Source: an uncultured Clostridia bacterium (GTDB lineage Bacteria > Bacillota > Clostridia > Lachnospirales > Lachnospiraceae). From it: a DNA stretch of 64,000 bases. This document shows positions 11,139 to 19,332 of this stretch, one piece after another. Each line of letters starts with the position of its first letter. Within the stretch, counting starts at the first letter, position 1. Both the position numbers and the translations under genes were made by a program. The notes beneath the pieces are model-generated. The model was not told the DNA's origin and did no database searches. It saw nothing but the letters and a program-made list of their open reading frames with translations. Where the stretch lies: positions 17,209 to 81,208 of the forward strand of contig CANRWA010000012.1 in assembly GCA_947643415.1 (NCBI GenBank), in the 5' to 3' direction.

Positions 11139-11296
11139 TTCTGCATCTCCCCCAATAGTTCCACTTCATGTAATCTAACGTAAACACCGTACATATATTA
11201 TAGTTTATTGTATCATAAGATCACCGACTATTCAACGGTTCAATGACGAAAAAAATATAGGACACTAAACTGGTTACTGTTCACTCAGTCAGCTAT

Positions 11297-13249
11297 TTAA
11301 TCGTGGGGGCAGGGCAGCGGATTCTGTACTGTCTCTTGCTGGTATTCCCTATACCTTCCTTTTGTCTCATTCTTCACTTCATATAATGCCTCATCTGCAT
11401 GGTTAAGAAGTACCGTTATGCTCTGTTGTGTTCCATCTGCACAGGCAAACCCGGCAGATGCACTGATCACTATATTGTTTGTCTCCGACAATATAACAGG
11501 ACATTCATTGAGCACTTTATAAAATTCATTCACATATCCTCTTACCTCTGGCACATCATGGCAATGGAAGATGAACATACAAAATTCGTCGCCGGAACGC
11601 CGTGCTGTAATGTAATGTTCTTCCGGCATAGATAACATTACCTTTGCGAAGCTTTCCAGATACTTGTCTCCTATATCATGGCCATATGTGTCATTGATGG
11701 TCTTAAACGAATCCAGGTCCATCATGACAGCAGCACATATTTCATCTTCTGGCAAGCTTTGCAGGATCTCTGATGCCAGATCTTTAAAATATGGGAATTT
11801 ATACAATCCAGTAAGGGGATCATGAGTATTTTCATACTGCATCTGTATCTTCTGTATCACCTGGTCGCTGACATCTGTAATAACCCCAAGATTTCCACGG
11901 GAGGATTCTGCCATATGGATGCAGACATATTGAGAGTCACTTACCCGATAGATATCTTCTTCTCCTTTCAGCGGCACCTTTGTAATATTATGGATGTATT
12001 CATCAAACAAATCTGGATCACAGTAAAGTTCCTCTGCCGTCTGTTCTGGGATATCAAGAAGCTGTCTTAATCCAGGCGTAGCAAAGACATAACCTGCCCC
12101 TGTTTCATATTCAAATGCTGCCAGTGGAATCCCGCTGATCTTAATAATAGAAGAAATCCGGTCAGAAAGGCTTACAATACTTTTTACCATCGCATTGATT
12201 CCATTACTTAACTTCTTAAATTCCGGATTGCCACTTTCTTCCACAGCAGTATCCAGATTTCCCGCTGTTATGGCTTCAAGCTTTCCAATAATGCGGTGTA
12301 TCCCTCCTACCACTTTTTGCCTGACAAGATAATTTAGCAAAAGCAGAACGGCCACTTCTATCAGCAGTAAACATATAAATGTAGTAAGCACATTGCTCCA
12401 TAATTTATGAAAAATCTGATGCCTTGGTACAGTGCCACAGATCATTACATTGCCATACTGCTGAGCCGCCACATACATAACCCTGCCATTTTCCCCTTCT
12501 TTGTAGGCTCCCCCCGTGCATTCCTTCAGTTCGTCCAACTGATAATACTCTGCCGAAAACTGTCTGTCCATTCCATCGGAATGTCCTAATATTTTTCCTG
12601 TTGTACAATCAACAGCAAAAAGTTCCTCTCCCACATCTGTAGGAAATTTAGAAAAGATATATTCATATGTATTCCTTGACTGAGCCTCCATCTGCCTGAC
12701 AGGCTCAAAACCAACCTGAACAAATCCCTTCTGCCCCTTTCGGGCAACTCCAATGTATTTCATAACCTTGCCTTCTGCCGCATTTGGCTGTGGCTCCTGA
12801 ATTAGATACGCATCCTCATCTTTATTTTCGAGCAACGAAAGAAACTCCCTCGTCTGCTCATGATCATCCATGTCAATTCCAATATATTGTGACACAGAAG
12901 CAGAAACAATCATACCATTCTCATCTATCACATGAAGTTCATCTACATTAAGAAGTTCAGCCAGGTACTGCATCTGCTGCACATCCATGGATATCTCTTT
13001 ATGATGATCCATGACATAGGTTGCTGCCCTCGCTCTTGTGAGGTAATCCGTATCCAGGCTTTTGTTAAGCTCAGCAAGCTCATCACTATTATTTTCCATT
13101 ATATGCATAACCTGTCCTGATTTTGTGAGAAATGTACTAAACTGTTGGCTTTCCAGTGACTGCAGCATAAACAAAAAATTAATGAATAAAATGAGCAAAA
13201 TAGCAGACGTAATAATGGCAGCTGTATATTTAACAAAGGTCTTCTGCAT
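11297..13249 (-). CDS. Membrane diguanylate cyclase with dCache-like sensor, SGDEF active site
   Basis: A 650-residue protein: helix 1 (about 10-30), a large external sensor of the Cache type (contains MHLVDENGMIV-like VIDENGMIVSASVSQYIG), helix 2 (near residue 290), a HAMP-like linker, a PAS-like segment and a C-terminal GGDEF domain (DPLTGLYKFPYFK...). The active site reads RRSGDEFCMF, Ser replacing the first Gly; variants of this kind can still be active, so I expect function but less surely. The track start at 13282 lacks a ribosome site; ATG at 13249 has GGGAGG nine bases upstream. Confidence 0.88.
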   Translation of the reverse strand: MQKTFVKYTAAIITSAILLILFINFLFMLQSLESQQFSTFLTKSGQVMHIMENNSDELAELNKSLDTDYLTRARAATYVMDHHKEISMDVQQMQYLAELLNVDELHVIDENGMIVSASVSQYIGIDMDDHEQTREFLSLLENKDEDAYLIQEPQPNAAEGKVMKYIGVARKGQKGFVQVGFEPVRQMEAQSRNTYEYIFSKFPTDVGEELFAVDCTTGKILGHSDGMDRQFSAEYYQLDELKECTGGAYKEGENGRVMYVAAQQYGNVMICGTVPRHQIFHKLWSNVLTTFICLLLIEVAVLLLLNYLVRQKVVGGIHRIIGKLEAITAGNLDTAVEESGNPEFKKLSNGINAMVKSIVSLSDRISSIIKISGIPLAAFEYETGAGYVFATPGLRQLLDIPEQTAEELYCDPDLFDEYIHNITKVPLKGEEDIYRVSDSQYVCIHMAESSRGNLGVITDVSDQVIQKIQMQYENTHDPLTGLYKFPYFKDLASEILQSLPEDEICAAVMMDLDSFKTINDTYGHDIGDKYLESFAKVMLSMPEEHYITARRSGDEFCMFIFHCHDVPEVRGYVNEFYKVLNECPVILSETNNIVISASAGFACADGTQQSITVLLNHADEALYEVKNETKGRYREYQQETVQNPLPCPHD

Positions 13250-16909: not shown

Positions 16910-18406
16910 TTAGCGGTAAAATACCTCGCCAAGCATAAGATCACGCTTAAAGTCACGAATCTTTGTATCTTTATCAATATATACTGCCTCAATTCCCATA
17001 GCAGAAGCCCAGTCTCCCATCTGCTCTGCAGTGAGGTCATAAGAAAATGCGGTATGATGGGCACCACCTGCAAGAATCCATGCCTCAGCTCCTGTATACA
17101 GATCTGGCTCTGGTGTCCAGAAAGCAGTTGCAACTGGAAGTTTCGGCATATCCTTCTCTGTCTTCTTGCATTCTACATCATTGATGATCAGGCGGAAACG
17201 ATTACCAAGATCAATCAGGGAAGTAGCAATACCATGCCCCTCTTTCGCAGTAAATACGAGACGGGTTGGATCTTCTCTGTCACCCATGGACAATGGCTGG
17301 CACTTAATACTGATCGGACCATCCGCAATACTTGGACAGATCTCAAGCATATGAGCCTGAAGGATACCCTCTTTTCCTTTCACCATATTGTATGTATAGT
17401 CCTCCAGCATGGAAGTACCCTTTGCATCTTTCATTCCCGCTGTCATGATCTTCATCAGGCGCACCATAGCAGCGACTTTCCAGTCACCCTCTGCCCCAAA
17501 GCCATAACCTTTCTCTTCCAAACGCTGGATCGCAAGTCCCGGAAGCTGTTTCAGGGCACCAAGATCACCAAAATGGGTTACAATCGCCTGATAATTCTTT
17601 TCCTGCAGGAAACGCTCGAAACCAATTTCGATCTGTGCTTGTACGGCAACATGTTTCTTGAATTCCTCCGGATCCCTTCCCTCTAAAAGAATATCATACT
17701 TCTCATAATACTCATCCACCAGTGCATTGGTATCAGAAGCGGATACAGAGGCAACACAATCTGCGATCTCATTGACAGGATATGCATCGATCTCCCATCC
17801 GAATTTAATCTGCGCTTCTACCTTATCCCCCTCTGTCACCGCTACATTACGCATATTGTCAGCAACACGCATAACGCGGATATGGCTGCTCTCCATAATA
17901 CCAACTGCAGTGCGCATCCAGGAAGCGATCTTATTCTGAACGATCGGATCAGACCAGTGGCCAACTACAACTTTGCGCTCAATGCGCATACGGCTTACAA
18001 TGTGGCCATACTCACGGTCTCCATGGGCTGCCTGGTTCTCATTCATGAAATCCATATCAATGGTATCATATGGAAGTTCCTCATTAAACTGCGTATGTAA
18101 ATGCAGAAGCGGCTTTCTGTATTCCTGAAGACCGAGAATCCATGATTTTGCCGGAGAGAATGTGTGCATCCAGGTAATAACCCCTGCACAGTTGTCGTCC
18201 GAATTTGCTTCATTAAATGTCTTACGGATCAGCTCATTTGTGATCAAAGTTGGTTTCCAGACCACCTCATAAGGCAGTAACCCCGACTGATTCAGCGCCT
18301 CCACCATCTTCTTGGAATGCTCTGCTACATTAGCGAGGCATTCATCACCGTATAAATCCTGTGAACCGGTGCAAAACCAAAATTTGTAGTCTTTTGATAA
18401 TAACAT
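16910..18406 (-). CDS. araA: L-arabinose isomerase
   Basis: AraA converts L-arabinose to L-ribulose in the cytoplasm. The 498-residue sequence fits the family throughout: FWFCTGSQDLYG at the N-terminus, the metal-binding Glu/His set in FGAEGDWKVAAMVRL, MLEDYTYN and the C-terminal GGAHHTAFSY. Length is typical. The start at 18406 follows AAAAGGAGG; the track's upstream start is weaker. araB and araD are not in the window, so the pathway is split. Confidence 0.96.
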   Translation of the reverse strand: MLLSKDYKFWFCTGSQDLYGDECLANVAEHSKKMVEALNQSGLLPYEVVWKPTLITNELIRKTFNEANSDDNCAGVITWMHTFSPAKSWILGLQEYRKPLLHLHTQFNEELPYDTIDMDFMNENQAAHGDREYGHIVSRMRIERKVVVGHWSDPIVQNKIASWMRTAVGIMESSHIRVMRVADNMRNVAVTEGDKVEAQIKFGWEIDAYPVNEIADCVASVSASDTNALVDEYYEKYDILLEGRDPEEFKKHVAVQAQIEIGFERFLQEKNYQAIVTHFGDLGALKQLPGLAIQRLEEKGYGFGAEGDWKVAAMVRLMKIMTAGMKDAKGTSMLEDYTYNMVKGKEGILQAHMLEICPSIADGPISIKCQPLSMGDREDPTRLVFTAKEGHGIATSLIDLGNRFRLIINDVECKKTEKDMPKLPVATAFWTPEPDLYTGAEAWILAGGAHHTAFSYDLTAEQMGDWASAMGIEAVYIDKDTKIRDFKRDLMLGEVFYR

Positions 18407-18538
18407 TTCGTACCTCCTTTTAACCAGGATAATCATATCCCCTATGAATCCTGTCTTAATTTGATTCTATTATACATCTTATATAGGGGTCATTACAAGT
18501 GATTTTTTTGAAAATATTGCTGCCTGAAGCAACAACAA

Positions 18539-19081
18539 GTTACTTTTATATCCCAGCCAGCTTTTTGATCATTCGGGCAGCGGTTTTGTACTGTCTGCTG
18601 CCCGATATACCACGCCCAGCGAAAAATAGCATGTTTCCTCCGGTTGCAAAAGCATTACGCTGCCTTTCGCAAAACTCGCTGTCTGCCGCCGTTTTCCTGC
18701 CTTTTTGCGGCATAGCCGCCCGCCGGTCCTTATGCACCACCTTTGGTTCCTTATCCCTGCGGGCAGCACCAAAGGTGCTGATCCATGAAAGGAGCATGCC
18801 AAAAATAAATATATTTATTTTCTGGCATCTCCTTTCCATGGACAGATGCCCTGCATCTGCCCGCAGTATAAATAGGCCTGGCTTCGGTGGTGCATTAGTA
18901 CCGTTGCGTGGCGGCTTCTAGTGCAAACGTGCTGCAAGAAGGCAGAAAAACGGCGGCAGACATCTCAGACAATGCTCCGGCAGCGTATCTGCAACTGGAG
19001 GAAACAATATTTTTCGGGGTGTGGTATAAGGACAGCAGACAGTACAAGACCCGCTGCTCTGGCTGAAGAGTGAAAAGTAAC
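18539..19081. repeat. Giant imperfect palindrome (about 543 bp), non-coding
   Basis: The whole interval is an imperfect inverted repeat centred at 18811/18812, where AAATAAATA meets TATTTATTT. The left arm and the reverse complement of the right arm share long blocks in order: GTTACTTTT, CAGCCAG, TTGTACTGTCTGCTG, TATACCAC, CGAAAAATA, GTTTCCTCC, GTCTGCCGCCGTTTT, CTGCCTT, TGCACCACC, CTGCGGGCAG and GGAG-ATGCC. No ORF here looks real. It fills nearly all of the 720-bp gap between araA and the small unknown gene. It could be a foldback mobile element or two inverted decayed copies of one sequence. Confidence 0.75.
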
Positions 19082-19082
19082 A

Positions 19083-19117
19083 ACAAAAACGGGGGATGCC
19101 ATAAACTGCATTCCCCC
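19083..19117 (-). terminator. Terminator of the small unknown gene
   Basis: On the minus strand GGGGGAATGC-loop-GCATCCCCC is followed by GTTTTTGTTG, a good intrinsic terminator eight bases after the gene's stop. It touches the outer end of the giant palindrome. Confidence 0.75.
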
Positions 19118-19124
19118 ATAGCCC

Positions 19125-19310
19125 TTATTCTTTCTCCCTCACAAAAGGCGGTTCATAATCATACACATCCTGATAGGATTCCCGCTCAGCCTCACTCACC
19201 GGAGCTCTGTACATAATGCCAGTACAGTCCGTCGTTGAACAGGAACTCAGATTCTCTATACCTTCACCAAACTCAAACTCATGGTAATCAATCTTTTTAT
19301 CTTTCTCCAT
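19125..19310 (-). CDS. Small acidic protein of unknown function
   Basis: A 61-residue acidic protein beginning MEKDKKIDYHEFEFGEG and containing CSTTDCTG in the middle, then a Glu/Tyr-rich stretch and EPPFV near the end. ATG at 19310 has GGAGGT seven bases upstream, and a terminator follows immediately, so it is a real transcription unit. I do not recognise a named family. Two cysteines four residues apart and an acidic leader-like first half could suit a modified-peptide precursor or a metal-binding peptide, but no modifying enzyme is adjacent. It lies about 200 bp downstream of the alarmone synthetase operon. Confidence 0.65.
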   Translation of the reverse strand: MEKDKKIDYHEFEFGEGIENLSSCSTTDCTGIMYRAPVSEAERESYQDVYDYEPPFVREKE

Positions 19311-19332
19311 GATACTACCTCCATTCATGTTT

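Follow-up and report, generated by a model that had tools for sequence, protein, structure and literature searches.

A lineage-restricted family of probable foldback transposons inserted upstream of promoters in three related gut bacteria

A 543-bp palindrome within a 64,000-nucleotide stretch of DNA from an uncultured Clostridia bacterium (hereafter the window, with positions counted from its first letter) is very probably a copy of a foldback transposon that is non-autonomous, inserts in a promoter-targeted manner and belongs to a new family restricted to one lineage. The family is previously undescribed and protein-free, and is spread through three related gut bacteria. Its copies have common ends and target-site duplications, lie at fixed spacings from promoters and co-vary between their arms without strand bias, and the site occupied in the window is empty in relatives.

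The palindrome and its neighbourhood

The first-pass annotation of the window had described an imperfect palindrome of about 540 bp, and this proved to be real, in that alignment of the whole interval with its own reverse complement gave 71% identity over 520 columns (E = 5.5e-44). The outer limits given there, 18539 and 19081, are the exact ends of the element and coincide with its terminal repeats. The prediction that a transcript of either strand would form a long hairpin was borne out by RNA folding of 18539-19081, with -314.5 kcal/mol (z -21.7) for the + strand and -307.6 kcal/mol (z -18.9) for the - strand, no shuffle being as good in either case. As had been described, matching blocks follow in the same order along both arms as far out as GTTACTTTT/AAAAGTAAC, but the centre is a four-way junction with three hairpins and not a simple tip.

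The statement that the palindrome has no coding function holds in practice. Its stop-free frames had a median of 104 aa, against 75 aa in shuffles, a mild excess that was put down to the palindrome, which couples the frames, and gap runs were mostly 1-2 bases long; a coding function was thus rejected. The element does lie just past the terminator of a gene of 67 aa, the T tract of which forms the right target-site duplication. This gene is probably real, because the neighbourhood and the gene DNA are kept upstream of araA in two relatives, G037 and G021 (~82%).

Two terminal types, TIR1 and TIR2, enclose one hairpin core across the family, and the window copy is of type TIR2. Its features and neighbours are listed below; the consensus fold and mean column identities are those of 30 copies from three species, in which the paired arms have identities of 0.72-0.79.

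16910-18436, - strand: araA, L-arabinose isomerase (Pfam AraA_N, AraA_central, Arabinose_Iso_C), the gene behind the putatively targeted promoter
18469-18498, - strand: araA promoter by consensus match, with -35 TTGTAA at 18498-18493, spacer of 18 and -10 TATAAT at 18474-18469; the -35 is 40 bp from the left end of the element
18531-18538, no strand: left target-site duplication AACAACAA, 7/8 identical to the right copy; 8 bp is the rule for TIR2 copies
18539-18558, + strand: left terminal inverted repeat of type TIR2, GTTACTTTTATATCCCAGCC, from the alignment of own-genome copies and pattern matches
18559-18573, + strand: degenerate remnant of the older TIR1, AGCTTTTTGATCATT, aligning with TAGGGCAATCGCTTAATCATT, the outer end of the G002 and G003 copies
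18539-18756, + strand: left palindrome arm and linker, from self-complementarity and fold
18664-18680, + strand: conserved internal-loop strand CTTTCGCAAAACTCGCT, mean column identity ~0.91
18757-18866, no strand: apex, with stem CTGCGGGC/GCCCGCAG closing the four-way junction (consensus fold)
18765-18779, 18781-18842 and 18843-18859: three apex hairpins (consensus fold), of which 1 and 3 are nearly invariant and 2 is variable with compensatory changes
18867-19081, + strand: right palindrome arm and linker, from self-complementarity and fold
18916-18929, + strand: conserved one-sided bulge TTCTAGTGCAAACG, mean column identity ~0.89 though unpaired
18962-18977, + strand: conserved internal-loop strand ATCTCAGACAATGCTC, mean column identity ~0.90, facing 18664-18680 and not complementary to it
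19061-19081, - strand: right terminal inverted repeat of type TIR2, reading GTTACTTTTCACTCTTCAGCC on that strand, from the family alignment and pattern matches
19082-19089, no strand: right target-site duplication AACAAAAA, which doubles as the terminator T tract of the 67-aa gene
19125-19328, - strand: the 67-aa gene, without a Pfam match

Elsewhere in the window, at 11273-11345, a pattern scan retrieved a solitary left end of this family in a decayed state (GTTACTGTTCACTCAGTCAGC...GGGCAGCGGATTCTGTACTGT).

Copies, ends and insertion sites

Further copies, for which the first-pass annotation had proposed a search, were found in the source genome (G000) and in two congeners, G002 and G003. BLAST searches with 18539-19081 retrieved 69 matches from the source genome, ~14 of them near full length, the remainder being fragments, short versions and pieces at contig ends; this genome is a draft of 230 contigs, the shortest of 2.5 kb, and several element copies lie at contig ends. 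Only these three of 39 congeneric genomes carried the element, both by BLAST and by a covariance model built on the inner 201 positions. A near-exact motif scan of ~85,000 species genomes likewise identified, besides the source, only Lachnoclostridium sp. UBA3262 and UBA7215, which correspond to G002 and G003. No element match was found in plasmid and phage collections, and no convincing further host in a covariance-model search of 397 genomes of the bacterial family, where three extra hits to stretches of ~60 bases were treated as chance perfect hairpins.

The element thus has the characters of a MITE: it is multi-copy, has no transposase gene inside, and carries terminal inverted repeats flanked by a target-site duplication. 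The copies in G002 and G003, and some in G000, end in TIR1 (TAGGGCAATCGCTTAATCATT), whilst TIR2 (GTTACTTTTCACTCCCCAGCC), located immediately outside a degenerate TIR1, bounds the main G000 set, to which the window copy belongs. Identity between the flanks peaked at 9 bp for TIR1 (0.513, null maximum 0.375) and at 8 bp for TIR2 (0.38, null maximum 0.331). Perfect duplications include CCTCTGAAT, CCTTGTAAT, AGAAAGGCA, ATTAGTAT and TGGATACA, and the pair flanking the window copy, AACAACAA/AACAAAAA, is a near-perfect 8 bp. In G037 and G021, which encode an AraA 98% identical to that of the window, the orthologous region upstream of araA is continuous and free of the element, with the araA promoter sequence and the small gene retained; the window copy is therefore most simply explained as an insertion that followed the split from these lineages. 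The first-pass suggestion of a foldback mobile element was accordingly right, on the grounds of ends common to other copies, target duplications and the empty orthologous site.

Short forms of 67-82 bp consisting of the ends only share one internal junction at several sites (L088, L134 and L109), which indicates that the ends would suffice for movement. The smallest version seen was a perfect 38-bp palindrome of two TIR2 ends (L167, G000:C1:114946-114983). In four other copies (L106, L136, L140 and L089) the interior of the hairpin is inverted with respect to the outer arms, which recombination between the arms would be expected to produce. Two congeners that lack the hairpin core, G030 (L242, L243 and L244) and G034 (L245), have short TIR1-like palindromes or half ends, some of them directly upstream of promoter-like sites, which hints at a wider TIR1 family. 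Searches for TIR2 outside the source genome gave single chance-like matches only.

Promoter spacing, candidate transposases and related elements

Matches to a sigma-A-like consensus, scanned outward from every element end, were concentrated at two distances. An outward promoter-like site was located 17-19 bp from 24 of 70 TIR1 ends (shuffle mean 0.41, maximum 3, in 200 rounds), with the -35 at exactly 18 bp in 20 of the 70, and 37-40 bp from 15 of 60 TIR2 ends (shuffle mean 0.47, maximum 3). Either end of the element can face the promoter, and the two spacings differ by 21 bp, or two helical turns. At more than half of the ends, no promoter could be recognised at the distance predicted. Fourteen of 26 copies lay between divergent genes, against a proportion of 0.30 expected from intergenic sequence (p = 0.01), and one of 26 between convergent genes (0.18 expected, p = 0.07).

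A fixed distance upstream of the -35 is also a property of the p-MULT 3 elements (TnGBS ICEs and the ISLre2 family) and the ISKra4 subgroup of p-MULT 4, with which the present family shares duplications of 8 or 9 bp, terminal inverted repeats of ~20 bp and, as in members with near-perfect repeats, insertion in both orientations (Guerillot et al. 2014, PMC3942029). Unlike the p-MULT elements, it has no transposase gene and is nearly all palindrome. For p-MULT 3 the published position is 15-17 bp upstream of the -35 with duplications of 8 or 9 bp (PMC3942029); the duplications found here, 9 bp for TIR1 and 8 bp for TIR2, are of these lengths, and the TIR1 peak at 18 bp adjoins the published range, though few ends fall inside it. 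The excess of 1-3 bp may reflect how ends are counted. Given this likeness in spacing and duplications, TIR1 copies behave like p-MULT cargo. The peak of the TIR2 form, to which the window copy belongs, lies at 37-40 bp and so outside the range of 15-17 bp; insertion at this distance is absent from PMC3942029, and no report of it was found in the open-access papers searched. The inverted repeats of p-MULT elements are 18-39 bp long and have a cytosine conserved at the terminus (PMC3942029); the repeats of the element are within this range of lengths, TIR1 copies starting with T or C and TIR2 reading 5'-G...C-3'.

We consider it highly likely that the element is a giant MITE, that is, a non-autonomous foldback transposon mobilised in trans by promoter-seeking transposases. 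A transposase made elsewhere, presumably of the DDE class, would recognise the terminal repeats and insert the element upstream of a sigma-A promoter, at a constant distance from its -35 box, duplicating 8 or 9 bp of target. Insertion would probably proceed via docking on promoter-bound RNA polymerase, as suggested by the spacing and by analogy with the proposal for TnGBS. The older TIR1 form, with its 9-bp duplication 18 bp from the -35, would be cargo of Mutator-superfamily p-MULT transposases (ISLre2/TnGBS/ISKra4 type), and the TIR2 form, which has ~21 extra bp outside the degenerate TIR1, appears to use a different promoter-seeking transposase. Only tentatively do we propose that this second system inserts 37-40 bp upstream of the -35, two turns beyond the ISLre2/TnGBS position on the same face of the DNA, that the hairpin was passed between promoter-seeking transposases by acquiring new outer ends, and that the conserved branched apex and the loops form a structure in the DNA that the transposition complex or the host recognises.

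No autonomous element or transposase with TIR1 or TIR2 ends was found in the source genome or its congeners; as contigs below 2.5 kb are missing from the draft, an IS of 1.5 kb could be missed and this absence is weak evidence. Forty of the smallest contigs of the source genome contained no IS with either type of end, and the TIR1-like loci of G030 and G034 had no transposase. ISLre2 genes or fragments are present in all three host genomes, without matching ends. The sole ISLre2 transposase gene of the source genome (L130, G000:C185; 268 bits, over the cut-off), which lacked definable boundaries, was rejected as the driver on account of its non-matching ends, and is a candidate source of promoter-targeting activity.

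Among bacterial repeats, ERIC, NEMIS, RUP, BOX and REP are small and non-coding, occur in many copies and have terminal inverted repeats. The present element resembles these MITEs and palindromic repeats, Correia/NEMIS included, in all of these respects, and differs in being several times longer, with a branched apex, two swapped sets of ends and a precise promoter spacing. REP elements produce no target duplication, and a REP/REPIN identity with movement by RAYT, which acts on short palindromes of 20-40 bp, was rejected for an element of 540 bp with duplications of 8 or 9 bp. Correia elements also sit upstream of genes (reviewed in PMC10969869). Eukaryotic Foldback/Mutator-like elements, for example Tm1 (PMC3169594), are likewise transposons made largely of long inverted repeats and are assigned to the Mutator superfamily; the resemblance is one of plan only, the present element being bacterial and 0.5 kb.

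Upkeep of the palindrome and rival explanations

Double compensatory changes were found in 74 of the 141 consensus pairs of the 30-copy alignment, and double changes were 8-20 times the independent expectation at every distance. Variable pairs were Watson-Crick in 92.3% of cases within a copy, in 82.0% when the arms were taken from different copies of one genome, and in 73.0% when taken from different genomes; the arms therefore stay complementary within each copy, and the suggestion of two decayed inverted copies was mistaken. In an uncalibrated test, the 124 pairs that were found on both strands held 87 G-U and 88 C-A cells; the counts were 10 and 9 for mismatches shared by three or more copies, and 12 and 12 in the union set at five or more copies. 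Since selection on the RNA of one strand should favour G-U, this equality argues for upkeep at the DNA level. A structured RNA as the reason for the palindrome, also raised in the first-pass annotation, was left unsupported, with no notable Rfam match and no excess of G-U over C-A.

Upkeep is most likely through template-switch (quasipalindrome) correction between the arms during replication, which is a documented process (PMC8794818) and which we infer from the pattern of changes only; being a mutation process and not an element, it would account for changes that are paired between the arms and for the small number of intermediates. Clustering of double changes, examined as a signature of template switching, gave 24 adjacent couples against 10.9 expected, a weak signal since variable helices are clustered in any case. 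The co-variation of the arms would likewise be explained by selection for a DNA hairpin. The loops and bulges had identities of 0.89-0.99, against 0.72-0.79 in the arms, and since the internal-loop strands, the bulge and the apex hairpins are conserved though unpaired or non-complementary, something appears to keep them, which speaks against pure correction as the sole upkeep.

An mRNA-processing role has been proposed for ERIC or NEMIS, and the present hairpin could similarly be a functional structured RNA or mRNA-processing element, spread by transposition and kept for its RNA. Its very strong fold on both strands, the 74 co-varying pairs and the conserved unpaired motifs would all fit, but we give this reading little credence in view of the equal G-U and C-A counts at every threshold, the insertion upstream of promoters with under-representation between convergent genes, and the lack of any Rfam match near the gathering score. 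It is very improbable that the element is instead a regulatory module for the genes behind it (an insulator, cruciform switch or UP-like element), with a spacing set by selection and not by targeting. Selection should give a minimum distance, whereas a sharp peak is expected from targeting; two different spacings exist, close relatives do not share the window site, and almost the same spacing is seen for TnGBS and ISLre2 (PMC3942029), elements not known to have a hairpin of this kind, so that the fixed promoter distance and the conserved apex and loops, which such a module would accommodate, do not tip the balance.

A single transposase that moves both TIR1 and TIR2 copies and tolerates different ends is rather unlikely, given that the two terminal sequences are unrelated and their duplications differ in length (9 and 8 bp), even though both target promoters and their spacings are a whole two turns apart. 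As for chimeric inverted joins, the draft state of the genome (230 contigs), in which several copies sit at the end of a contig, might have raised them; the arms are only 71% alike and not identical, and three genomes that were assembled separately share the core at different sites, where it has target duplications and shows compensatory changes. This cross-genome evidence refuted an assembly artefact, to which we attach practically no probability.

For the promoter-targeted foldback transposon that we favour, the wider interest is that, in bacteria, only a few families are known to transpose in a promoter-directed manner, and that two natural sets of insertion sites with two sharp, different spacings allow the link proposed between transposase and RNA polymerase to be put to the test. 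The long stem, in which compensatory changes are abundant without a sign of RNA selection, also provides a clean natural case, and a caution that structured RNAs should not be called from co-variation alone.
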